Source: an uncultured Prevotellaceae bacterium (GTDB lineage: Bacteria; Bacteroidota; Bacteroidia; Bacteroidales; Bacteroidaceae). From it: DNA of 33,159 nt. A model generated the notes under the pieces. It ran no database searches. It had not been told where the DNA came from and saw only the letters and a list, made by a program, of their open reading frames with translations. The position numbers and the translations under genes are program-made. Positions 3,256 through 18,185 of the stretch are shown here, in pieces. Numbering within the stretch: position 1 is the first letter of the stretch; every line of letters begins with the position of its first letter. Location of the stretch: assembly GCA_945827465.1 (NCBI GenBank), contig CALZOH010000002.1, forward strand, positions 1-33,159, given 5' to 3'.

Positions 3256-4008
3256 ATGAAGATAGCATTAATTGGATATGGAAAAATGGGACACATGATT
3301 GAAGAAGTGGCTAAAAAAAGAGGTCACGAGATTGTGTGTATCATTGATTATGATAATCAAGAAGATTTCAAGAGTAAAGCATTTGCCAGTGCTGATGTAG
3401 CCATAGAGTTCACCACACCTACCGCAGCTTACGACAACATTTGCAAAGCCTTTGAACAAGATGTAAAAGTCGTAACCGGTTCTACCGGTTGGCAAAAAGA
3501 ACATTCTGAAGACATTCGTTGGTTTTGCCAACACCAAGGACATACATTGTTCTGGAGTAGCAATTTCAGTTTAGGCGTTTACCTTTTCAACAAACTCAAT
3601 GTTTACTTAGCCCAATTGATGAACAATTATTCCGACTACCAAGTTGAAATGGATGAAATTCATCATATCCACAAGTTGGATGCCCCGAGTGGAACAGCCA
3701 TCACATTAGCCGAAGAACTCATCAACCATTATGATAAAAAAACTGAATGGGTAAAAGGTGAATTACACGCTCCCGACGGCTCTGTAAGCGGTAGTCGCGA
3801 AGCAGAACCTCAGCAGTTGGTTATTAATAGTTATCGCCAAGATGAAGTACCCGGCATCCATACCGTCAAATACAATAGTGAATTTGATGAAATATCCATT
3901 ACACACAATGCACATAATCGTGGCGGATTTGCTTTAGGTGCTGTGTTGGCAGCTGAATTTGCAGCTACTCATGAAGGATTGTTGACAATGGATGATCTAT
4001 TCAAATAA
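3256..4008 (+). CDS. dapB: 4-hydroxy-tetrahydrodipicolinate reductase
   Basis: 250 aa; 'MKIALIGYGKMGHMIEEVAKKRGHEIV' NAD(P)-binding N-terminus, 'EIHHIHKLDAPSGTAITLAE' DapB signature, 'GGFALGAVLAAEF'. Confidence 0.97.
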   Translation: MKIALIGYGKMGHMIEEVAKKRGHEIVCIIDYDNQEDFKSKAFASADVAIEFTTPTAAYDNICKAFEQDVKVVTGSTGWQKEHSEDIRWFCQHQGHTLFWSSNFSLGVYLFNKLNVYLAQLMNNYSDYQVEMDEIHHIHKLDAPSGTAITLAEELINHYDKKTEWVKGELHAPDGSVSGSREAEPQQLVINSYRQDEVPGIHTVKYNSEFDEISITHNAHNRGGFALGAVLAAEFAATHEGLLTMDDLFK

Positions 4009-4014
4009 AATCTC

Positions 4015-5469
4015 ATGAAAGAACTGACAAACAAGCATTCCATCGGTCAGGCAAGCCGTAAAGACTGGATAAAATTTATCTTTTGGACATTGCTTTATCT
4101 CATTTTTCTGGCTTGGCTTGAAAGCTGGTGGGGAGTGATTGTGATTCCACTGATATTCGACGCCTATATCACACGTTTTATACCTTGGACCTGGTGGCGA
4201 AATAGCAAGAACAAACAAGTCAGACAAATAATGAGTTGGGTCGATGCCATTGTGTTTGCCCTCATTGCCATGTATTTTGTCAATCTCTACTTTTTCCAGA
4301 ACTATGTTATTCCCTCTTCATCTCTGGAAAAGAGCATGCTTACCGGTGATTATTTGTTGGTCAGCAAAATGAGCTATGGTCCACGCATTCCCAATACACC
4401 GGTCCATATGCCGCTCACAGCTCACACCATCCCTCTGCTGAATATCAAGTCGTTTGTTGATTGGCCGCAATGGGATTATCGACGCGTGAAAGGCTTTGGA
4501 GAAGTTCAGCAAAATGATATTGTTGTCTTCAACTATCCTTCAGGTGATACTGTAGCCACTAAAGTACAAGAAGGCGACTATTACTCCATGTGTTATGAAA
4601 TAGGTGAACAGCTCTGTCCATATGATCGCGAAAGCCTTTCTCCCGAACAACGATTTAATTCATACAAAGAACAATACGAGGCTGGACGCAATTACATTAT
4701 TGACAATGCTGATAAATTCGGTAAAATCATCAGTCGACCGGTCGATATGCGCGATAACTATGTAAAACGTTGTGTAGGCATGCCCGGACAATGGCTAAAA
4801 ATACGTGATGGAATTATTTATACCAATAACCATCCCAACAAAACGCCTGACATGGCACAAAAATCCTATATCGTAACATTGAGATATGATTTACCGGAAG
4901 ATTTCTGTAAAGAAAATAACATCACATTTGAAGATCGCATGGATGTTATCAACAATGCAACAACCATTGTACGTCGCATGCCGCTTACTAAAAGTGCTTA
5001 CTACGCCCTTTTAAAGCGTACCGACTTGGTAATATCCATTGAACCCGCTCCGTCAACAGGAGGAACAGCTCTGTATCCACACAATATGCTGACAAGATGG
5101 ACTTGCGATAACTATGGTCCTATTTGGATTCCTAAGAAAGGTCATACCGTACAACTCAGTATTGCTACTTTGCCCATTTATCAACGCCCCATTGAAGTGT
5201 ATGAACACAATCAATTGGAAGTACGTGATGGAAAAATTTTCATCAACGGTATAGAAACCAATCGTTACACCTTCAAAATGGATTATTACTGGATGATGGG
5301 CGATAACCGAGACTATTCGGCCGACTCACGTTTCTGGGGATTTGTTCCCGAAGACCATATTGTTGGTAAACCCATTATTGTTTGGATGTCGCTCAATAAA
5401 GATTACGGATGGTTTGACGGAAAAATTCGTTGGGATCGATTCTTCCGATTAGTTGACAACATCAAATAA
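4015..5469 (+). CDS. lepB: Signal peptidase I (S26), large Bacteroidetes form
   Basis: 484 aa; catalytic Ser box 'VIPSSSLEKSMLTGDYLLVSK', Lys box 'NYVKRCVGMPGQ', box E 'MMGDNRDYSADSRFWGFVP'; N-terminal hydrophobic segments. Confidence 0.96.
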   Translation: MKELTNKHSIGQASRKDWIKFIFWTLLYLIFLAWLESWWGVIVIPLIFDAYITRFIPWTWWRNSKNKQVRQIMSWVDAIVFALIAMYFVNLYFFQNYVIPSSSLEKSMLTGDYLLVSKMSYGPRIPNTPVHMPLTAHTIPLLNIKSFVDWPQWDYRRVKGFGEVQQNDIVVFNYPSGDTVATKVQEGDYYSMCYEIGEQLCPYDRESLSPEQRFNSYKEQYEAGRNYIIDNADKFGKIISRPVDMRDNYVKRCVGMPGQWLKIRDGIIYTNNHPNKTPDMAQKSYIVTLRYDLPEDFCKENNITFEDRMDVINNATTIVRRMPLTKSAYYALLKRTDLVISIEPAPSTGGTALYPHNMLTRWTCDNYGPIWIPKKGHTVQLSIATLPIYQRPIEVYEHNQLEVRDGKIFINGIETNRYTFKMDYYWMMGDNRDYSADSRFWGFVPEDHIVGKPIIVWMSLNKDYGWFDGKIRWDRFFRLVDNIK

Positions 5470-5482
5470 TCATCACTATTGA

Positions 5483-6193
5483 ATGAAATCCTGGTTAAGA
5501 ATTGTGATCACATTCTTCACAGCCATCTTGATTGCATGGTTGACCGGATTTCTGCTGATTTTTCAAACTCTATTAAATAATGACATACCCGAAATGGGTT
5601 TACAAAAAGGCGACCGCATTCTCGTCAACCGATGTGCATACGGAATGCGGTCGCTGATTGAGTTGTTTCATGATTACAATTCACCTAAGCAACTACCCCA
5701 AAATGGTGACCTCATAGCCTTTTACGATCCGTTATCGACAATAAAATCTATCAGTTCACGACCCGTCAACATCGGTAGATGCACTGCCCTACCCGGCGAT
5801 ACGGTTTATTTCACCTGGAAAAACAATAATCATATCTTCAAACACCAGAAATTGGTTATTCCACAAAAAGGAATACCTATCAAAGTAGAACCGTCCAACA
5901 AGATCATACTGGCCAACGCCCTTCATCTTCATGAAAACAAAAATGTTTGTTGGGATTGCGACAGTGTTTTAGTAGTCGACGGAAAGCGTTTAAAATCCGT
6001 ATGTTTTTCTCAAGATTATTTGTGGATTGGAAATACCGAATCTACCACTCTATCATATGATTCACAACTATTCGGACTAATTCCCACCTCTCATGTAGCC
6101 GGTAAAATACTCTGCACAACCTTTTCATTCGATAGCGAACAACCCTTTTACCGTTCACTACGTTTAAATCGCTGCTTTATTCCACTTCATTAA
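5483..6193 (+). CDS. Signal peptidase I-like (S26) paralog, predicted catalytically inactive
   Basis: 236 aa with N-terminal TM; aligns to upstream LepB ('LQKGDRILVNRCAYGMR' vs 'LTGDYLLVSKMSYGPR'; 'SRPVNIGRCTALPGD' vs 'SRPVDMRDNYVKRCVGMPGQ'; 'SYDSQLFGLIPTSHVAGK' vs 'SADSRFWGFVPEDHIVGK') but the Ser and Lys positions are not conserved. Confidence 0.82.
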   Translation: MKSWLRIVITFFTAILIAWLTGFLLIFQTLLNNDIPEMGLQKGDRILVNRCAYGMRSLIELFHDYNSPKQLPQNGDLIAFYDPLSTIKSISSRPVNIGRCTALPGDTVYFTWKNNNHIFKHQKLVIPQKGIPIKVEPSNKIILANALHLHENKNVCWDCDSVLVVDGKRLKSVCFSQDYLWIGNTESTTLSYDSQLFGLIPTSHVAGKILCTTFSFDSEQPFYRSLRLNRCFIPLH

Positions 6194-6279: not shown

Positions 6280-7452
6280 TTATTTGGCCAACTCATAAAT
6301 TTCACGTGTTGCTCTGCGATCTAATTGAACATAATTACCTATGAATTCACCTTTATCCTCATGTAACTTATACACTAATTTGTCAATATCGGGATTTTCT
6401 ATGCCTAATTCTCTAAATGAAGTAGGTAAACCGATGGACTTGAGAAATTTTTTGTAAGCAAATACACCTTCAACCGTCATCATGCGCAAATCTTTGCGCT
6501 TTTCAACATTCCACACCCTTTCGGCAAACTGTGCAACTTTTTCGGGACGATGATTAGACACCCAATTTAACCAGGCAGGTTGAATGACTGCCAAACCGGC
6601 ACCATGAGTGACACCATAAACAGCACTTACTTCATGCTCTAAGAAATGACTGGCCCAATCTTCCTCACGTCCTACACCACACAATCCATTATGTGCTATA
6701 GTAGCAGCCCACATAATATTGGCACGTACTTCATAGTTTGACGGATCAAGCATCACTTTATGGGCTTCTTGAATAATGGCTTTGAGAGTACCTTCACATA
6801 GTCGGTCAGTAAGTTCTACATCAGTTGTATTCGTGAAATATCTCTCCATAATATGACTCATCATATCGGCAATACCGCAAGCAGTTTGCCAAGGACTCAA
6901 ACTAATGGTCAATTCCGGATTCATGATTGAAAACTTAGGACGCAACTCTCTGTCAGTACGAATACTCAACTTATGTAAACCATCACGCTTTGTAATAACA
7001 CTATTGCCGGAAGCTTCACTACCTGCTGCAGGAATTGTAAGAACCACACCTATAGGCAATGCTTGCTTCACACGTGCTGTTCCCTGAAAGAAATCCCAAA
7101 AATCACCTTCATAAGGTACACCAGCTGCTATGGCTTTAGCGGTATCGATTACAGAACCTCCACCAACAGCAATCATAAAGTCAACATGATAGGTACGAGC
7201 AATCTCTATACCTTCATATACTTTATCATCCGTTGGGTTAGGCGCAATATCTCCAATTTTATAACACATAATACCTTCGTTCATCAAAGAGTCTTCAACA
7301 CGCTGAAGCAATCCACTCTTCACCGCATGACCTTTCCCGTAAACAATTAGTACTTTATTCGCACCATATTTAGTAGCTAATGAACCTACTTTGTTTTCAG
7401 TACCTTTACCAAAAACAAATTCTGTTGGACTAATAAAAACAAAATTATTCAT
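6280..7452 (-). CDS. Iron-containing alcohol dehydrogenase (butanol dehydrogenase/YqhD-like)
   Basis: Start MNNFVFISPTEFVFGKGTENKVG; 'VDFMIAVGGGSVIDTAKAIAAG', 'NSVITKRDGLHKLSIRTDRELRPKFSIMNPELT', metal-binding 'DMMSHIMERYF' and 'HNGLCGVGREEDWASHFLEHEVSAVYGVTHGAGLAVIQPAW'. Confidence 0.93.
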   Translation of the reverse strand: MNNFVFISPTEFVFGKGTENKVGSLATKYGANKVLIVYGKGHAVKSGLLQRVEDSLMNEGIMCYKIGDIAPNPTDDKVYEGIEIARTYHVDFMIAVGGGSVIDTAKAIAAGVPYEGDFWDFFQGTARVKQALPIGVVLTIPAAGSEASGNSVITKRDGLHKLSIRTDRELRPKFSIMNPELTISLSPWQTACGIADMMSHIMERYFTNTTDVELTDRLCEGTLKAIIQEAHKVMLDPSNYEVRANIMWAATIAHNGLCGVGREEDWASHFLEHEVSAVYGVTHGAGLAVIQPAWLNWVSNHRPEKVAQFAERVWNVEKRKDLRMMTVEGVFAYKKFLKSIGLPTSFRELGIENPDIDKLVYKLHEDKGEFIGNYVQLDRRATREIYELAK

Positions 7453-7616
7453 CGATCTTTTCTTGTATGAGGAATGCAAATATAATTGTTTCTTTCAGTC
7501 CGTCAGAAAATAGTTCTTTAAATGAACTTAATTCCACTTTTCTTTTACATAAATCTCCGAAAAACAACCTTCGGTATATAATAACTTACTGCTTCTTTGT
7601 TACAGCATGTAGATTG

Positions 7617-10511
7617 TCACTTCTTCTTCTTCGGTTGTTTATTGAACCGATAGAATATATGTATCATAAAGTAACGAGGAAGAGAATTATGCCATGTTTC
7701 AGTACGTCCTTGAGAATTGAGTACTTGGAATATATTACTAAGATTACCAAAAATATCAAAACCATCTATCATCATGGTAATACCCGGTTTGATGAATGTT
7801 TTGGAAAGACGTGCATTCCAAACAAAATCATTTGTATTGGCATCTGATGTAGCATAACCATAATGACTGTACATGGTTAAATCAGTTGATAACTCCATAT
7901 TCAAAGGCAGTTTTATAATAGCATTTAATCCGTAATTTAGGTCACAAAGAGTATACGAATTAAAGTCCTGACGTGAAGAGGTTACATGGCCAACACCTAC
8001 ATATCCTTTTAAACCTATTGAATGTTTACCTATGCCATGTTTTAATTCTACCTTTTCGGAACCCCACCATGTATTGACTGTACTACGTTGAGGCATGATA
8101 TTTTCAACTTCGGAATTATAATCAACACCATGATTTAATCTTAGTACACTTTCATCTTTAATAACCAATTTGCGTTTCTTATCAAGAGGTGTCCAATGCC
8201 AAATATAAGTATGCAAAGAATAATTGCCATTGATATTCACAGGTTGATAATGACGAATACCGGTTGAACGGTCAAATCTATAAGAATAAGCCAACGCATT
8301 TACTATGGTTGTATAATATTGTTTGATGGTAAAATTACTCTCTTTCTTATCATTTTTATTGGCATAAAGTAATGACACTTCATGATTGGTAGTATTCTTT
8401 AAATCACTATTTCCTTTATAGATGTTAAGCGGATCTGAAGTATTCTCAATATTCAAAAGACTTGTCATGGATGGAGCTGTTTGCTTAACATTATATTCTA
8501 ACCTTAATTCAGTCTTGTTATTCCTATAAAACTGCAATTTTGTCTGAGGTGAAAGAAGTACACTATTACGACGCGTAATACCTGAATAGACATCACCATT
8601 TCCACGGATGTAATTAAGACGGTAGTGATGATAAATTAGGGGTAAATTTATACTGATATCATATCGATTGCGTACATCTTTAGATTCTATTGTTTTACTT
8701 TTATAAAACTGCAGAGTTGCTCCAACATAATTATCTACCTGATGAAGATCATAGCTGTTATCTGTATCAAACAAATGCAATTTGTAATCAATTTCAGAAG
8801 GTAGTACACCTAAAGCATTGTTACTTTCATCTAATTGATCCAGATAATACCGTGAATAAACATGTGTTTTCAGTTCCTGACCGATAATAGGATTAACAAT
8901 AGCATTCATTTCTGTTGTGAAGAAACCGAAATAATTATCTAAACTGTAATTAAGCGTTCGATTGGGCTTATCGTTAATATACATGTTTCTACTTTCTGAA
9001 GCAACTGAAGGTTGCGAAGGATAATTGAGACTATAAAAATCAAATGAATTTGACTTATCTGTAACGTAACTGATATTTCCTTCTAAGCCATAATAATAAC
9101 AACTAGAAACACCTAAATATTTTAAGGATAATTCACTTGAAAGACTATGACCGTCTGACTTGATGTCACGATTATACTTATTGATCATCATATTGCGAAG
9201 AGTAGCACTATTACCATATTGAATGCTGTCGAGTAAGGCTTTACTTTGAATATAATCATAAGGATTGACATTGAAGGTAGAAGACAAACTATTGTTACTC
9301 CGGTCAAAACGTGTATAGCTGAAAGAAGGATCTATTTCTAATCCAGATACCCCGTCAGAATTTCTCAATTCCCATTGATGAGAAGTATTGAAACTAAAAT
9401 TATTATTACGACTATTGAAGCGACTTTTTGAAAATGTACTTCCACCGTCAAGATAAGATTCGGCAGTAGTTTCAGAATAGTTATCGGTATCAATATACGA
9501 CAAGCCGGCATTTCCTTTAAATTTATGAGTAGTATGTTTTGGCTTTATTAGGTAGTCAAAACCTCCCATTTTTTGTGATTGAAGACCATGAGGCATTTTG
9601 TCAGGTGACCAACTGGTATTCTCACCCGGTTTTCGAGTATCATTAAGATTATTGAAATTGGAGTAGATGCCTATCCGTGAAGCATCTGTAAATCGCAAAG
9701 CAAACAAACGGGCAAGATAACGATCTTTAGAACCCATACCCACTTCTGCATTTCCTATATATCCTATAGAATATTGTTTTTTAAGATTCACATCCATCAC
9801 ATAATCTCCCTCAGGTTTCTTGTCTTTTAACATGGAAAAAGAATCCTTGCGATCATAAACCTTGATATTTTTCACCATATATGCCGGTAAGTTTTCAAGG
9901 AGAATTTGATTTTTACCTTTAAAAAAATCTTCACCATTGAGTAGAAGGGCATCCACCTTACGACCATTGACCTTTATCTCACCATTATCATTTAATTCAG
10001 CTCCAGGTATTGACTTAATAAGGTTGTCAAGCATGGAACCCTCAGATAAAACAAAAGCATCAGCATTATACACTAAGGTATCTCCTCTATGATAAAACTT
10101 TATTTTGGTTGCTTTGACAACTACATCGTTAAGTCGATGTTCCTTAGCTATTCGCTTCATGTTTACATTGAAAGCAAAACGCAGCCCTTCTAACTTTTTG
10201 AAAGTCTTTACTTCAACAACCTTTTCTAAATACTCATATCCTTCCTTGTAAAAGCAAAATCTATAAATGCCACCCTCCTTGGGTACTTTGAGATACCAGT
10301 AACCCGATACATTATTAATCGTTAAATCTTCTTCACCTTTACTCTGTGCCACCAAAACGGTATCTTGATAAACAGAAACACTAACATGTTTCAATACTTC
10401 TTGAGTGACATGGTCTTTTGCCATACCATAAAGCAAGTAGTCATTATCTGCTAAAGCCAATATGGGAAGCATAAACAACCACTGAACTAACAAATATCTC
10501 AATCTATTCAT
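7617..10511 (-). CDS. Outer membrane beta-barrel protein (TonB-receptor-like family with N-terminal carboxypeptidase-regulatory-like domain and pseudo-plug)
   Basis: Long ORF with signal peptide (MNRLRYLLVQWLFMLPILALA), regulatory-like beta domain, plug-like segment 'GSMLDNLIKSIPGAELNDNGEIKVNGRKVDALLLNGEDFFKG', then alternating aromatic beta-strands; C-terminal 'IFYRFNKQPKKKK'. The ATG at 10511 is preferred over the TTG start in the track (10520 is also possible). Confidence 0.85.
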   Translation of the reverse strand: MNRLRYLLVQWLFMLPILALADNDYLLYGMAKDHVTQEVLKHVSVSVYQDTVLVAQSKGEEDLTINNVSGYWYLKVPKEGGIYRFCFYKEGYEYLEKVVEVKTFKKLEGLRFAFNVNMKRIAKEHRLNDVVVKATKIKFYHRGDTLVYNADAFVLSEGSMLDNLIKSIPGAELNDNGEIKVNGRKVDALLLNGEDFFKGKNQILLENLPAYMVKNIKVYDRKDSFSMLKDKKPEGDYVMDVNLKKQYSIGYIGNAEVGMGSKDRYLARLFALRFTDASRIGIYSNFNNLNDTRKPGENTSWSPDKMPHGLQSQKMGGFDYLIKPKHTTHKFKGNAGLSYIDTDNYSETTAESYLDGGSTFSKSRFNSRNNNFSFNTSHQWELRNSDGVSGLEIDPSFSYTRFDRSNNSLSSTFNVNPYDYIQSKALLDSIQYGNSATLRNMMINKYNRDIKSDGHSLSSELSLKYLGVSSCYYYGLEGNISYVTDKSNSFDFYSLNYPSQPSVASESRNMYINDKPNRTLNYSLDNYFGFFTTEMNAIVNPIIGQELKTHVYSRYYLDQLDESNNALGVLPSEIDYKLHLFDTDNSYDLHQVDNYVGATLQFYKSKTIESKDVRNRYDISINLPLIYHHYRLNYIRGNGDVYSGITRRNSVLLSPQTKLQFYRNNKTELRLEYNVKQTAPSMTSLLNIENTSDPLNIYKGNSDLKNTTNHEVSLLYANKNDKKESNFTIKQYYTTIVNALAYSYRFDRSTGIRHYQPVNINGNYSLHTYIWHWTPLDKKRKLVIKDESVLRLNHGVDYNSEVENIMPQRSTVNTWWGSEKVELKHGIGKHSIGLKGYVGVGHVTSSRQDFNSYTLCDLNYGLNAIIKLPLNMELSTDLTMYSHYGYATSDANTNDFVWNARLSKTFIKPGITMMIDGFDIFGNLSNIFQVLNSQGRTETWHNSLPRYFMIHIFYRFNKQPKKKK

Positions 10512-10529
10512 ACTTCCCATACAAGACAA

Positions 10530-11603
10530 TTATTTCTTTATTTTTGAAAGAACATCGCAGTTGAAATTATAACTCGAATACTCCAGATTACTAACGTCCA
10601 GCTTAGATATGCCACTAAGGTCGGCCTTTAAATAATCAGAACTTCCGGATAGTTTAGCAAAGGAAGTACCACCAATTTCCAGTGATCCTTCTTTAATTGT
10701 TCCACCATTTACATGTAATTTTGAAGCACCAGTTACACTGGCTTCCAAACGGTCAACACTGCCTGTTAATTCTACGAAAGAAATACCACTAATTTTCACT
10801 ATCCCTTCTTTAAGTATTTCATTATTTAAATAGAATTTAGAAGAACCGCTGATATCAATATCTAATTGTTCACTGATATCAGTTTTCATTTTAGCCTGAG
10901 ATGTTCCGTCTATGATTCCTTTCATATTATTACATACGCATGTTGCTACTTCCAAACCTGAAATTCCTGTTAGATGAAAGTTGAAGAAATCTGTTTTCAA
11001 CTTCGGAATTTCTATTTTAGAGCAGCCAGAAACATCCATTTTCAAGTTACCTACATTCAATGATCCTTCGGAAGTTATACCAGAACAACCAGAAATATCT
11101 ATTAGCAAATTCTCAGACTGAATGAAATCACCCGTAAAAGACAAATGACTGATACCGGACAATTCCAATTTTTCAACTTTGGGTACACACAAATTGATCA
11201 TAACAGTCTCTTCTGAATTACGATTGACATTAATATTCTTCTCTAAATTTTCCAACCTCAATTCTCCATTAAGATAAGTGACCTTTACTTTAAAATCTTT
11301 CGGTATGTAAACATCTACATGGGGACGGTCGGATTGAGTCATTTCAATATTTGCAATAAAATCGCTATGAAATGATGTGAAATGAGAATCAATCTCAATG
11401 TTCTCTTCTATCATGCCCTCGGTATCGGCTTCTTTGAAATGGAAAGGAACTAATGGTTCCAAGGCGTCTAATGTGTTTTCAAGAGTAAGTTCACCTGATT
11501 TAATCACGATTCCGTCTTCTACGTTTGATTCAACTTTGTTGCTACAGGATATAAAAGAAGAAAGCAACAGAAATGCTAACGCTGATACTGCTTTTGTATT
11601 CAT
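10530..11603 (-). CDS. DUF2807 (head GIN/putative auto-transporter adhesin-like) lipoprotein
   Basis: 357 aa; lipobox 'LLLSSFISCS'; repeated beta-helix-like units 'LDISGCSGI', 'MDVSGCSKI', 'IDISGSSKF', 'ASVTGASKLHVNG', 'ADLSGISKLDVSN'. Confidence 0.82.
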   Translation of the reverse strand: MNTKAVSALAFLLLSSFISCSNKVESNVEDGIVIKSGELTLENTLDALEPLVPFHFKEADTEGMIEENIEIDSHFTSFHSDFIANIEMTQSDRPHVDVYIPKDFKVKVTYLNGELRLENLEKNINVNRNSEETVMINLCVPKVEKLELSGISHLSFTGDFIQSENLLIDISGCSGITSEGSLNVGNLKMDVSGCSKIEIPKLKTDFFNFHLTGISGLEVATCVCNNMKGIIDGTSQAKMKTDISEQLDIDISGSSKFYLNNEILKEGIVKISGISFVELTGSVDRLEASVTGASKLHVNGGTIKEGSLEIGGTSFAKLSGSSDYLKADLSGISKLDVSNLEYSSYNFNCDVLSKIKK

Positions 11604-11610
11604 ATTAAAA

Positions 11611-11618
11611 CAAATTTA
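11611..11618 (-). promoter_or_regulatory. Putative -7 element (TAAATTTG) upstream of the DUF2807 gene
   Basis: Reverse strand TAAATTTG matches TAnnTTTG; lies 8-15 nt before the ATG, implying a very short leader. Confidence 0.4.
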
Positions 11619-11685
11619 AAAAGGTAATTCTAATAGGTAAACGCAGCAACACATCATTTGTAACATTTATTTCTGACTTTTTTTG

Positions 11686-12149
11686 TTATCAACTGAAGTT
11701 TTCCACTTCACAGCATATAAATCATAAGATCTTTAAAGTTTATAAGTGTTATAATAAAAGAATGTATGAATGTTGTTGATGATAGTCGGTGGAAAGTGGG
11801 AAAATTTTTCGTCAATAATATTTGGTCATGAACATATCAACTTTGGAGTTGGAATTATCCACTGAAAATTAACTACTGGATAATGTTTGCCAAATGATTG
11901 AAAAAATAATATTTATAGGAGCAGTAAGATGAAGTTTTCCACTGTTTGTTGAAAACTTTCAGGTGAAGAAATAAAGTGGGATGATAGTTGTTGATAACTC
12001 CGGGATAGTTGTGGAAAAAGAGTAGAAAAGAGGCGTGGAAAAGTTGAAATCTATGTTTCTTTTTCTATTGAATTTATGGAATAGTTTTCAGCAGGGTATT
12101 CCACTTGTTTTACGCAGTTGTAAGGAATGTTATCAACGGGTTTTCCACT
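11686..12149. other. Candidate chromosomal replication origin (oriC): cluster of DnaA-box-like 9-mers
   Basis: Sites: TTATCAACT 11686-11694(+), TTTTCCACT 11699-11707(+), TTATCCACT 11855-11863(+), TTATCCAGT 11875-11883(-), TTTTCCACT 11935-11943(+), TTATCAACA 11989-11997(-), TTTTCCACA 12010-12018(-), TTTTCCACG 12034-12042(-), TATTCCACT 12097-12105(+), TTATCAACG 12130-12138(+), TTTTCCACT 12141-12149(+). The region is AT-rich, non-coding and located at an orientation switch. Confidence 0.8.
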
Positions 12150-12438
12150 GATTTTTGAAATTAGGTATTTCTATTTAGAATTATTTGCTGCTTTATGAGC
12201 GGATTGAAGAGCGTGAACTACTCAACAATCCGGAAGTACTGATTAGAGACGAAATTATATGTCTCTTGGGAAAATCATCCTTCATGTGTGAATAAACGAA
12301 CCTTTTACGTCATCTCCGGAAGAGGATTTGCAGATATAGGGGTATCCTTAATTTGAAGACGATAGAAATAACGTCAATGTTGTCTGTCTTTACGCAGATT
12401 TCCGTGATTTCAAAGAAAATTATTTAGGACACTATTGC

Positions 12439-12469
12439 TTGTTTATATAATTAAATTGACGTACATTTG
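12439..12469 (+). promoter_or_regulatory. Putative Bacteroidetes-type promoter
   Basis: TTG (12439-12441), 20-nt spacer, TACATTTG (12462-12469), just upstream of a small ORF and the sugar cluster. Confidence 0.5.
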
Positions 12470-12485
12470 CATACACTCATTATAT

Positions 12486-12734
12486 ATGAAAAGTGTTTAT
12501 TACTTGTTTTGTTTGATCGGTTTGCTTTTGTCTACTATTTCCAGAGTTGAAGGTATCTGTAAATGTTTTATCAATGAAAGTAGTGCAAATAGTATCGTTT
12601 TTGGCATTCAAGTAAATTTGTATGGGAATAAATACTTTGATTGTGAAGAATATGATTGTTTGGTAGGAATATTGATGGTAGCTAATAGAAATACGATAAA
12701 TAGTGGTTTTCAAAGGTCTGCTTACATTCTATGA
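12486..12734 (+). CDS. Small hypothetical protein (possibly secreted)
   Basis: Start MKSVYYLFCLIGLLLSTISRVEGICKCF with a signal-peptide-like N-terminus and a promoter-like element 17 nt upstream; no recognised family. Could be a truncated remnant. Confidence 0.4.
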   Translation: MKSVYYLFCLIGLLLSTISRVEGICKCFINESSANSIVFGIQVNLYGNKYFDCEEYDCLVGILMVANRNTINSGFQRSAYIL

Positions 12735-12813: not shown

Positions 12814-14229
12814 ATGCAATCGAATATAAATTTTTCTTATATGCTGTTTTTGTCTGTAGTGGCAGCATTGGGCGGTTTCTTGTTTGGGTATGATACAGCT
12901 GTTATATCAGGGACTACTTCTCAAGTAGCGCAAATCTTTCATTTGGATACATTGCAACAAGGTTGGTATGTAGGTTGTGCTTTGATAGGTTCTATAGCTG
13001 GTGTTTTGCTTTCCGGTATATTAAGTGATAGATTAGGACGAAAACTGACCATGATTTTGGCGGCAATTATGTTTTCAGCATCTGCTATAGGTTGCGCCTT
13101 TTGTGCAGATTTCAATCAATTAGTTTTATATCGTATTATTGGAGGTGTAGGTATAGGTGTTGTATCAATCGTTTCACCTTTGTATATTTCTGAAGTTTCC
13201 GTAGCTCAATATAGAGGACGATTGGTAAGTCTTTATCAGTTGGCAATAACAGTTGGATTTTTGGGAGCATATTTAATGAATTATCAATTGTTGTCATGGT
13301 CGAATAGTAGTGCCGTAGTCACTGATGGTTGGATAAATCGTATTTTTGTTTCAGAAGTGTGGCGAGGAATGTTGGGTATGGAAACCCTTCCTGCTTTATT
13401 CTTTTTCTTGATCATATTCTTTATTCCTGAAAGTCCTCGTTGGCTGATTGTTCGGGGAAATGATTCACGTGCAACCAGCATATTGGAGCATATATATGGT
13501 TCTTTCAAAGAAGCAACTTTACGGTTAAATGAAACAAAAAGTCTATTACAGACTTCGTCAATGGCTCAATCGGAATGGCGTTTACTTCTCCAGCCCGGCA
13601 TAAGAAAAGCCGTAGCTATTGGTGCTGGTATAGCTATTTTAGGACAGTTTATGGGTGTTAATGCAGTTCTTTATTATGGCCCTTCTATTTTTGAAAATGC
13701 CGGATTGTCGAGTGGAGACTCTTTGTTTTATCAAATAATAATAGGTTTGGTGAATACACTTACCACCGTATTGGCACTATTTATTATTGATAGAGTAGGA
13801 CGAAAAAAATTGGTATATTACGGTGTATCGGGAATGATTATAGCTTTATGTTGTATTTCATTCTATTTTACTTTTGGTGAAATTTTGAACATTCCTTCTT
13901 GGGTGTTATTGTTTTTCTTTTTGGCTTACGTATTCTGTTGTGCCGTTTCTATCTGTGCAGTCATTTTTGTATTGCTTAGTGAAATGTATCCGACTAAAGT
14001 ACGTGGCTTGGCCATGTCTATTGCTGGATTTGCTTTGTGGATAGGTACGTATTTGATAGGTCAGTTAACCCCTTGGTTGCTTCAGAATCTTACTCCTGCC
14101 GGAACTTTCCTTTTATTTGCAGGTATGTGTATACCTTATATACTTATAGTATGGAAGTTAATACCCGAAACTACGGGTAAATCATTAGAGGAAATAGAAA
14201 GGTATTGGACCAAATCAGAGAATATTTAA
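12814..14229 (+). CDS. Sugar porter family MFS transporter (XylE-like)
   Basis: 471 aa, about 12 TM segments; 'GGFLFGYDTAVISGT', 'DRLGRKLTM', 'YISEVSVAQYRGRLVSLYQLAITVG', 'PESPRWLIVRG', 'DRVGRKKLVYYG', 'SEMYPTKVRGLAMSIA', 'PETTGKSLEEIE'. Confidence 0.95.
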   Translation: MQSNINFSYMLFLSVVAALGGFLFGYDTAVISGTTSQVAQIFHLDTLQQGWYVGCALIGSIAGVLLSGILSDRLGRKLTMILAAIMFSASAIGCAFCADFNQLVLYRIIGGVGIGVVSIVSPLYISEVSVAQYRGRLVSLYQLAITVGFLGAYLMNYQLLSWSNSSAVVTDGWINRIFVSEVWRGMLGMETLPALFFFLIIFFIPESPRWLIVRGNDSRATSILEHIYGSFKEATLRLNETKSLLQTSSMAQSEWRLLLQPGIRKAVAIGAGIAILGQFMGVNAVLYYGPSIFENAGLSSGDSLFYQIIIGLVNTLTTVLALFIIDRVGRKKLVYYGVSGMIIALCCISFYFTFGEILNIPSWVLLFFFLAYVFCCAVSICAVIFVLLSEMYPTKVRGLAMSIAGFALWIGTYLIGQLTPWLLQNLTPAGTFLLFAGMCIPYILIVWKLIPETTGKSLEEIERYWTKSENI

Positions 14230-14262
14230 TAATAAGCTTATATTAATTTATAACAAGATAGT

Positions 14263-15438
14263 ATGAAGGACTTTAATAAATTAGCAGAACAGTATAAAAA
14301 CGAGTTGCTGAATAGTGTTTTACCTTTTTGGTTGAAAAACTCCCAAGATAAAGAGTTTGGTGGTTATTATACTTGCTTACGTCAGGATGGCAGTGTATTT
14401 GATACCGATAAATTTATTTGGCTGCAAGGGCGCGAAGTTTGGTTGTTTTCTATGCTTTACAACAAAGTAGAAAAACGTCAAGAATGGTTGGATTGCGCCA
14501 TTCAAGGTGGGGAATTTTTGAAAAAGTATGGCCATGATGGAAATTATAATTGGTATTTCTCTCTTGACCGTCAGGGGAATCCTTTGGTAGAACCTTATAA
14601 CATATTCTCTTATACATTTGCAACTATGGCATTTGGTCAATTGAGTTTGGCTACGGGTAACCAAGAATATGCTGAGATAGCTAAAAAAACATTTGATATT
14701 ATATTGTCTAAAGTAGACAATCCGAAAGGGAAGTGGAACAAATTACATTCGGGTACTCGTAACTTAAAAGGTTTTGCTTTACCTATGATTCTATGTAATC
14801 TTGCTTTGGAAATAGAACATTTGTTGGATGAGGATTATTTGGTGAAGACAATGGATACTTGTATTCACGAAGTAATGGAGGTCTTTCTTCGTCCGGAATT
14901 GGGAGGTATCATTGTGGAAAACGTGAATGCCGACAATAGTTTAGTTGATTGTTTTGAAGGTCGTCAGGTTACTCCGGGACATGCTATCGAGGCGATGTGG
15001 TTTATTATGGATTTAGGTAAGCGTCTGAATCGCCCGGCATTGATTGAAAAAGCAAAAGATACAGCTTTGACAATGTTAGAATATGGTTGGGATAAAGAAT
15101 TTGGTGGCATATATTACTTTATGGATCGTAATGGTAATCCTCCTCAGCAGTTGGAATGGGATCAGAAGTTGTGGTGGGTACATATAGAAACTCTTATTTC
15201 CATGCTGAAAGGTTATCAACTTACAGGTGACCAGCGTTGCCTGGATTGGTTTGAGAAGGTACATCATTATACGTGGGAACATTTTAAGGATAAAGAATAT
15301 CCCGAATGGTTTGGTTACTTGAACCGTCGTGGAGAAATACTTCTTCCTTTAAAAGGTGGTAAGTGGAAAGGTTGTTTTCACGTACCAAGAGGCTTGTATC
15401 AATGCTGGATAACATTAGAAGCAATTAGCAAGCGATAA
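14263..15438 (+). CDS. AGE family epimerase/isomerase (N-acylglucosamine 2-epimerase-like)
   Basis: 391 aa; 'LPFWLKNSQDKEFGGYYTCLRQDGSVFDTDKFIWLQGREVW', 'RNLKGFALPMILCN', 'EGRQVTPGHAIEAMWFIMDL', 'QKLWWVHIETL', 'KGCFHVPRGLYQCW'. Confidence 0.93.
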   Translation: MKDFNKLAEQYKNELLNSVLPFWLKNSQDKEFGGYYTCLRQDGSVFDTDKFIWLQGREVWLFSMLYNKVEKRQEWLDCAIQGGEFLKKYGHDGNYNWYFSLDRQGNPLVEPYNIFSYTFATMAFGQLSLATGNQEYAEIAKKTFDIILSKVDNPKGKWNKLHSGTRNLKGFALPMILCNLALEIEHLLDEDYLVKTMDTCIHEVMEVFLRPELGGIIVENVNADNSLVDCFEGRQVTPGHAIEAMWFIMDLGKRLNRPALIEKAKDTALTMLEYGWDKEFGGIYYFMDRNGNPPQQLEWDQKLWWVHIETLISMLKGYQLTGDQRCLDWFEKVHHYTWEHFKDKEYPEWFGYLNRRGEILLPLKGGKWKGCFHVPRGLYQCWITLEAISKR

Positions 15439-15447
15439 AACGATATT

Positions 15448-17586
15448 ATGCGACAAATAGGTATATTAACCATACTCTGTACGTGTCTTATGTTGATGTC
15501 TTGTTCGGCAGGAAATAAGATTATGTGCATGGGTAATCCTCATTCTGACTTGGCTCAATTATTGGAAAAAGAGGGGTATCATTTGCAATATTGTGCATCG
15601 GTGTCGGAAGTATTGGAGAAAGCTCCCAAACGTTCAGGCGTTTTGTTACTTAATACCACTTATCCAGAGCAGGGGATCGTTCTTACCACTAACGATTTGG
15701 ATGTGATAAAAACGAAATCATTGCGTGTATTGGTAGAATTTCCCCAGCAATTGGGTGAGAATGTTTGTGTGAAAACAAATACGATGGAGTTGGAAAGAGT
15801 CGTAGCTTGTGATTCACTTACATCTCAACTTCCGAAAATGTCTTTGATGGATTTTCATAGTTGTGTGGTAAAAGAAATGAAAGATACTCCGGACAGAACC
15901 TATATAGTAGTAGCCAAGGTCGCAGGTTTTGATAAGGCTGTATATGGTTTGGACAATACTCCAACGCTGCCGCTTTTATATCAAGAGAATGAAAATATAA
16001 TGGTTGCTGCAACAAACATCAGTAACTTTTCCGTTAGCCGTTATATGCCGGAACATCGCGTGCAATCTGTGTTTGAATACATCTTGAGTTGGTTGTTGCA
16101 AAAGGAGTCTGTGAAACTTTCTTCTTGGATTTCTTATGTTAAACCGGCATTTTCAGCAGATGCAAAGTTGCCGAAGGACGCTGCCAGAGAGAGTATAGCA
16201 AAAGGAATAGAATGGTATTATAACGGCCATTTTTTAGTACATCCGTCTTGGAAAAAAGAATGGGTTGATAAATACATGGGAGATGGATTAATGCCTGTAG
16301 GTCCTGAATTGCCGGCTGAATCGCCCGATGGAGATGGAACTTTGGGTGTGTTGGAGGGTCATATGTCGGGAATATATCATGATGGAAAACAACGCTACCG
16401 ATATTGGATGCGTGACGACGTGCAGGGAGAATCATCTTATGCTTTTGCTGCAGCCGGTGATTTGCTGGCTAAAGATGATTATTTAAAAGTATCTTCCAAT
16501 TTGTTGAATTATTCTTTTAGAGAATATCGTGATTCTGTCCGTAACAATCCGAAATCTCCGTCATACGGTCTTTTGGGTTGGGCTTACACCCATAAGAATA
16601 CTTATTACGGAGATGATAATGCCCGTTCCATCTTGGGTTCGTTGGGAGCTTCTGCCATATTAAATGATACTTCTTGGGATAAGCAGATAGTAGAGTGTAT
16701 TGTTGGGAACTTTCGCACAACAGGTAAGAATGGTTTTCGTGGAGGTAATATCTTGGATGCAGATTTGCAAAAGAATGGTTGGAGGCATTACTTTCATTCA
16801 GATTTAGTGAATTTACATCCTCATTTTGAATCTTGGAACTGGGCATGTTATCTTTGGCTATATACTCAAACGAAGTATCAACCATTGCTCGACCGGGTGA
16901 AGAAAGGCGTTGAATTAATGATGAAGGGTTATCCTAATGATTGGAATTGGACCAATGGTATTCAGCAGGAAAGAGCCCGTATGATTTTGCCGTTGGCTTG
17001 GTTGTATCGTGTAGAACCTACAGAGCAGCATCAACAATGGTTACAGTTTATAACGGAAGAACTGTTGAAGAATCAGGTGGCTTGTGGCGGTATCCGTGAA
17101 GAATTGGGTAATGAAGCTAAGAGTATGTTTGGCTGTACTCCTTCTAATGATGCTTATGGTCGTACAGAAGCTTCGCTTATATTTAAAAATGGCGATCCGG
17201 TAGCCGACATGCTTTATACAACTAATTTTGCTTTTGTCGGCTTGTGTGAAGCTGCTATGGCTACACAGAATCCTGAATACTTGAAGGCAGTGAATCAGAT
17301 GCGTGATTTTTTGATTCGTATTCAAGTACGAAGTGACAAGTTCAAGAATGTAGATGGTGCTTGGTTCAGAGCATTCAATTATCAGGATTGGAACTACTGG
17401 GCATCAAATGCCGATGCAGGATGGGGTGCTTGGAGCACGCTGACCGGTTGGATTCAAAGTTGGATTATAGGCACACAATATCTGATAGAAAAGAATACTT
17501 CTTTGTGGGATTTAGCTGCTAAAAAAGATGTATCAGCCATAGCTGGTAATGTGATCGAAGAGATGATAACCCACAATCAGTATTAA
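15448..17586 (+). CDS. Predicted lipoprotein with C-terminal alpha/alpha-toroid (six-hairpin-glycosidase-like) domain, function unknown
   Basis: 712 aa; lipobox 'LMLMSCSAG'; N-terminal alpha/beta segment, then Trp/Tyr/Asn-rich helical region typical of six-hairpin glycosidase-like folds ('FESWNWACYLWLYTQTKYQPLLDRVKKGVELM'). Closely linked to the AGE epimerase and MFS transporter. Confidence 0.6.
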   Translation: MRQIGILTILCTCLMLMSCSAGNKIMCMGNPHSDLAQLLEKEGYHLQYCASVSEVLEKAPKRSGVLLLNTTYPEQGIVLTTNDLDVIKTKSLRVLVEFPQQLGENVCVKTNTMELERVVACDSLTSQLPKMSLMDFHSCVVKEMKDTPDRTYIVVAKVAGFDKAVYGLDNTPTLPLLYQENENIMVAATNISNFSVSRYMPEHRVQSVFEYILSWLLQKESVKLSSWISYVKPAFSADAKLPKDAARESIAKGIEWYYNGHFLVHPSWKKEWVDKYMGDGLMPVGPELPAESPDGDGTLGVLEGHMSGIYHDGKQRYRYWMRDDVQGESSYAFAAAGDLLAKDDYLKVSSNLLNYSFREYRDSVRNNPKSPSYGLLGWAYTHKNTYYGDDNARSILGSLGASAILNDTSWDKQIVECIVGNFRTTGKNGFRGGNILDADLQKNGWRHYFHSDLVNLHPHFESWNWACYLWLYTQTKYQPLLDRVKKGVELMMKGYPNDWNWTNGIQQERARMILPLAWLYRVEPTEQHQQWLQFITEELLKNQVACGGIREELGNEAKSMFGCTPSNDAYGRTEASLIFKNGDPVADMLYTTNFAFVGLCEAAMATQNPEYLKAVNQMRDFLIRIQVRSDKFKNVDGAWFRAFNYQDWNYWASNADAGWGAWSTLTGWIQSWIIGTQYLIEKNTSLWDLAAKKDVSAIAGNVIEEMITHNQY

Positions 17587-17599
17587 TATTGGCAGATGG

Positions 17600-18130
17600 T
17601 TATTGCATTAAATGCCGGGCAAATTCCCACATAACGATGGCTGCCGTATTGGAAACGTTGAGCGAATGTTTCGTGCCGAATTGAGGAATTTCGAGGCTGG
17701 CCTGACAAGCGTTGACTACTTCTTGTTGCACGCCTTTGACTTCATTGCCTAACACAAGAGCATAATGTCGATGAGGTTGGGGCTGCCAATTTTGTAATTG
17801 AATGCTTTGTTCAACTTGTTCTACAGCTAAGGTAATGCAGCCTGATTGGTTGAGATCTTCAATGACCTTGACGGCATCTTCGTAGTATTCCCAATCTACG
17901 GAATCTTCTGCTCCTAATGCTGTCTTGTGAATTTCTATCATGGGTGGAACGGCAGTGATTCCGCAAAGAACGATTTTGTGAATGCGAAAGGCATCGGCTG
18001 TTCGGAATACGGAACCGACGTTATACATGCTTCTGATATTGTCGAGCACGATGGTCAAAGGTATTTTGTCGGATTGTTTAAATTCTTCTACACTGAGTCT
18101 GTTTAATTCCGTTACTTTTAATTTTCTCAT
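17600..18130 (-). CDS. TrmH/SpoU family RNA methyltransferase
   Basis: Start MRKLKVTELNRLSVEEFKQSDKIPLTIVLDNIRSMYNVGSVFRTADAF; SPOUT motifs 'ALVLGNEVKGV', 'LEIPQFGTKHSLNVSNTAAIVMWEFAR'. Confidence 0.94.
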   Translation of the reverse strand: MRKLKVTELNRLSVEEFKQSDKIPLTIVLDNIRSMYNVGSVFRTADAFRIHKIVLCGITAVPPMIEIHKTALGAEDSVDWEYYEDAVKVIEDLNQSGCITLAVEQVEQSIQLQNWQPQPHRHYALVLGNEVKGVQQEVVNACQASLEIPQFGTKHSLNVSNTAAIVMWEFARHLMQ

Positions 18131-18185
18131 TTCTTCAGTCTTCGATTGTGCTACAAAATTAGTGTAAATAAAAAGAAAATTGGCA

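Follow-up and report, generated by a model that had tools for sequence, protein, structure and literature searches.

Replication origins situated far from dnaA have been reported to be common in Bacteroidetes (PMC4755523), and in Prevotella intermedia a 476-bp locus containing multiple DnaA boxes at a skew transition has been predicted as the oriC of chromosome I (PMC4755523). For 132 gut microbes, Ori-Finder predictions of this kind have also been found to agree with origins derived from metagenomes (PMC10225481). The DNA analysed here (hereafter the window) spans contig C2 from end to end (33159 bp) and belongs to the draft genome of an uncultured gut bacterium, which totals 2.85 Mb, is split into 269 contigs and is 99.55% complete. 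Its interval 11686-12149 is very probably the chromosomal replication origin (oriC), a reading that draws on base composition, DnaA-box content, strand asymmetry and comparison with relatives. Like the chromosome I oriC of P. intermedia OMA14, it combines multiple boxes with a GC-skew transition far from dnaA; the OMA14 origin is itself only a prediction, and the two loci are likened by description, not by sequence or neighbouring genes (PMC4755523). The original prediction had noted that in many Bacteroidetes oriC is not beside dnaA, and here dnaA lies on a separate contig (C92), so that the interval is not a dnaA-adjacent origin. The encoded DnaA (464 aa) is normal, with N-terminal, AAA+ and C-terminal helix-turn-helix domains. 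A search for parS returned no near-match in the window; on another contig, C38 of G000, it found two palindromes (11059-11074 and 13041-13056) that resemble parS with one mismatch and lie 2 kb from each other.

The outer limits of the putative origin, as set by ORF scan, GC content and an Rfam search, enclose a non-coding, AT-rich region at 11604-12434. GC content is 31.8% over 11601-12480, no ORF of at least 100 aa occurs between 11604 and 12813, and none of at least 40 aa starts inside 11604-12434, where the only coding-like sequence is an antisense-frame tail ending at 11619; no Rfam family was detected in the window. The AT-rich, gene-poor gap of about 880 bp that had been described from the sequence is thereby borne out, with a possible short ORF (12435-12734) as its right limit. 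On the left, the gap is bounded by a minus-strand gene for a DUF2807 protein (10530-11603; Pfam PF10988), and on the right the next gene encodes an MFS sugar transporter on the plus strand (12814-14229; PF00083).

Within this gap, a both-strand scan identified 12 nine-mers with at most two mismatches from TTATCCACA, with starts from 11686 to 12141, where the original prediction had counted at least 11 consensus-like sites on both strands within about 465 bp. A perfect TTATCCACA is absent among the boxes of this cluster, and the three one-mismatch sites that had been named were all recovered, namely TTATCCACT at 11855 (+), TTATCAACA at 11989 (-) and TTTTCCACA at 12010 (-). Ten of the 12 boxes, all within 465 bp, match TTWTCMAC, for which the expectation per 880-bp gap is 0.35 +/- 0.59, with a maximum of 4 in 1000 dinucleotide shuffles. 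Shuffling of the whole window (n = 100) placed no more than three boxes in any 470-bp stretch, and the background density in 1.6 Mb of DNA from relatives is 0.257 boxes per kb, such that the cluster at 11686-12149 stands well above chance. Across the whole window, one-mismatch versions of TTATCCACA are only mildly enriched (18 found versus 9.8 expected), and the signal therefore resides in the local cluster.

The boxes are arranged in pairs and short runs. Both ends of the cluster bear a plus-strand tandem pair of the form TTATCAAC-TTTTCCAC: TTATCAACT and TTTTCCACT at 11686-11707 (starts 11686 and 11699, 13 bp apart), and TTATCAACG and TTTTCCACT at 12130-12149 (starts 12130 and 12141, 11 bp apart). 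Between them lie the single plus-strand box at 11855-11863, a facing pair at 11935-11955 formed by TTTTCCACT (+) at 11935 and TTTTCAACA (-) at 11947, and a head-to-tail minus-strand run at 11989-12042, in which the two one-mismatch sites noted above are followed by TTTTCCACG at 12034. The spacings of this run, 21 and 24 bp, are roughly double the 11-12 bp that separate boxes in the clusters of four relatives (G015, G011, G023 and G072). Such a spacing of 11-12 bp would fit a DnaA oligomer in which each helical turn accommodates about one protomer. By nearest-neighbour duplex energy, the segment 11716-11765, which starts 8 bp past the first box pair, is the third least stable 50-bp stretch in the window, and it is proposed as the best candidate for the DNA unwinding element; the non-coding AT-rich DNA thus includes an easily melted stretch. 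A palindrome, GTGGATATCCAC, lies beside tandem boxes in the origins of G072 (L145, 1200-1800) and G023 (L146, 1100-1800), whereas none was found in the interval of the window.

GC skew of the source genome, a 269-contig draft, was computed within the 33-kb window. It ranges from -0.02 to -0.25 over the left flank, climbs to between +0.2 and +0.27 immediately beyond the right edge of the interval and remains mostly positive up to the window end, and the cumulative minimum of the window falls at 11301. Transcription alone might flip the skew, given that the nearest genes run outwards from the gap on both sides, and third codon positions were used to separate the two causes. Top-strand GC3 skew on the left side is -0.14 in minus-strand genes and -0.30 in plus-strand genes, and on the right side it is +0.26 and +0.08, respectively; values near zero occur in the two genes adjoining the gap on the left (7617-11603) and in the plus-strand genes located at 18-23 kb and near 28 kb. 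The sign of GC3 skew thus follows the side and not the coding strand, as an origin would predict, and this indicates that replication, and not only transcription, sets the skew sign, and a transcription-independent sign change is present within the window.

The gene layout around the gap agrees in part with the original description of mainly minus-strand genes giving way to mainly plus-strand genes. This holds close to the interval, but genes right of about 23 kb are mostly on the minus strand, and dapB and two lepB genes on the left (3256-6193) are on the plus strand. These left-flank markers were recognised by synteny and by a match to PF10502 for 4015-5469; the identities of dapB and of the second lepB come from their sequence and from matches in relatives. 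On the right, a sugar-use operon (12814-17586) separates the cluster by 5.4 kb from a minus-strand gene for a SpoU/TrmH rRNA methylase (17600-18139; PF00588), hereafter trmH; the 712-aa lipoprotein-like protein of this operon (15448-17586) has no Pfam family match. GC content steps up along the window: it is 32-43% up to about 18 kb and 48-58% between 21 and 31 kb. A chimeric contig is an unlikely source of this step, as relatives also have DUF4294 and dcp, two genes of the GC-rich part, near trmH.

Complete relatives allowed box clusters to be compared with chromosome-wide skew. G023, a single contig of 3.29 Mb, was represented by 42 sampled 20-kb stretches, with cumulative skew interpolated from the samples. 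Its only cluster of at least four boxes per 500 bp in those stretches comprises eight boxes at 2665688; trmH is 28 kb away, and the estimated skew minimum, near 2626000, lies at a distance of 40 kb, about the size of the sampling error. The estimated maximum near 1090000 lies roughly half a chromosome away from the minimum. G072 was sampled in 20 stretches of its 1796408-bp contig, among which a single cluster of this kind occurs, at 16574, 13 kb from a minimum near 4000; the maximum is near 1020000. The stretches around both clusters had been sampled on purpose, so the test lies in where the independently computed minimum falls, and in both chromosomes it falls at the cluster within the 55-100 kb sampling distance. 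A third relative, G026 (3.71 Mb), has its minimum near 586000, with trmH at 577351. The comparison of the interval with a whole-chromosome skew minimum is thus by proxy and at sampling resolution, through the clusters of G023 and G072 and trmH of G026. A search across 150 relatives for the pattern TTATCAAC-N1-12-TTWTCMAC was noisy, but it pointed to the G023 and G072 clusters.

Among closer relatives, the non-coding DNA of the window was searched in 18 same-genus genomes and yielded nothing beyond one 28-bp match, and dapB/lepB and trmH served as synteny anchors. The MFS gene at 12814 was also tried as an anchor and dropped, since no box clusters occur near its relatives and it is not conserved beside origins. 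Clusters of five to seven TTWTCMAC boxes per 500 bp lie about 1 kb or less from trmH in six genomes (G006, G007, G011, G012, G014 and G017), and G015 has eight boxes about 0.9 kb from trmH, in a gene order (lepB-lepB-Fe-ADH-cluster-trmH) that is the window's own, with its cluster 4.3 kb from the local skew minimum. Three boxes lie beside trmH in G004, G005 and G008, and several relatives, G026, G027, G010, G013, G049 and G059, have few boxes of this consensus there. The position in the trmH/dapB-lepB neighbourhood is thus conserved in seven same-genus genomes and not detectable in all. The orientation of trmH is variable: depending on the genome, the gene points away from the cluster or towards it. 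Of 21 sampled loci, 14 have their local cumulative-skew minimum no more than 1 kb from trmH, against 3.4 expected under a uniform distribution, a proportion that is indicative only, as the stretches were chosen around trmH. Two kinds of repeat were encountered in the course of these comparisons. A unit like TTATCAACTATCAATTATCAAC, with 13 copies in G007 and seven in G017 scattered over many contigs, is by its sequence a dispersed repeat resembling paired DnaA boxes, and TTATCAACNNNTTATCAAC-type repeats, about 70-180 bp from contig starts at several contig ends of G046 and G142, are perhaps mobile-element ends or another assembly-breaking repeat.

Clusters of DnaA boxes are not confined to origins, and they occur as well at loci that titrate DnaA or are regulated by it, such as datA and DARS of E. 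coli; a locus of this kind, near but not at the origin, would be compatible with boxes that are all imperfect. It would not, however, account for the change of skew sign at 11686-12149, and no second cluster of at least four boxes was found in the 1.6 Mb sampled from relatives outside the two skew-minimum loci, making this explanation very improbable. Chance has even less to recommend it. An AT-rich intergenic region may accumulate boxes fortuitously, and its immediate neighbours are divergent here, so that composition could be skewed by transcription; yet the observed box count was never reached in shuffles, GC3 skew has the same sign in the genes of both strands on each side, and box clusters recur at the corresponding place in relatives.

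That recurrence also bears on the idea that the boxes are iterons and that the interval served as the origin for a plasmid or conjugative element that has integrated. Some indication of an insertion is provided by the sugar-use operon and the genes at 6280-11603, which separate genes that lie closer together in some relatives. Nevertheless, neither a replication initiator nor an integrase or relaxase was recognised among the window genes that were read or Pfam-scanned, and the boxes occur in both orientations and do not form uniform direct repeats. With no rep gene and no uniform repeats, this reading was rejected, its probability being close to nil.

The identification of 11686-12149 as oriC, as originally predicted, is instead supported by a box cluster far above chance, the strand-independent skew switch, the same-genus clusters, the skew minima of G023 and G072 and the location of trmH at the G026 minimum. 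In such an origin, DnaA supplied from elsewhere in the genome would bind the boxes in both orientations, and ATP-DnaA would oligomerise along those that are closely spaced. The adjacent AT-rich DNA would then open, with 11716-11765, next to the 11686/11699 pair, as the most likely site, after which the helicase would presumably be loaded and two forks would depart in opposite directions. With the origin placed, gene dosage and strand bias can be oriented in an uncultured genus represented here only by fragmented assemblies.

Beyond this genome, the comparisons tip slightly in favour of a broader pattern, in which the origin of Bacteroidaceae (GTDB) keeps to one gene neighbourhood, a SpoU/TrmH methylase with DUF4294, dapB and lepB, while the non-coding sequence and the arrangement of boxes are replaced almost entirely, even between members of one genus, and trmH may face either way. 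If true, oriC could be located by a gene-based marker in fragmented Bacteroidaceae genomes. Such a marker neighbourhood, with trmH between DUF4294 and dapB-lepB, may be of use in finding the origins of relatives, which matters for growth-rate estimates from metagenome coverage. The trmH-centred neighbourhood is perhaps mildly new; no description of it came up in a limited search of open-licence papers, a result that does not establish novelty.

Compared with other origins, the locus shows both familiar and distinct features. With the basal unwinding system (BUS) of Bacillus subtilis oriC (PMC8287927), it shares a tandem box pair adjoining an AT-rich, easily melted stretch (11686-11765), but no clear run of GAT-type DnaA-trios was found directly beside the pair. 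When a BUS-type arrangement was defined by at least three DnaA-trios no more than 16 bp from a box, a scan of the cluster found no GAT-type run beside any box. By eye, only the permissive NAN triplets AAT-CAT-AAG can be read at 11720-11728, although triplets of this kind are expected to be frequent in AT-rich DNA, and a BUS arrangement at 11686-11765 is no more than possible. As an oriC, the interval is an ordinary kind of feature that is already well known, and it leaves the general understanding of origins unchanged. It shares with DnaA-dependent origins as defined by DoriC/Ori-Finder criteria an intergenic, AT-rich box cluster at a skew switch (PMC10225481), and it differs from the general type in that its cluster is linked to a trmH/SpoU gene rather than placed beside dnaA.
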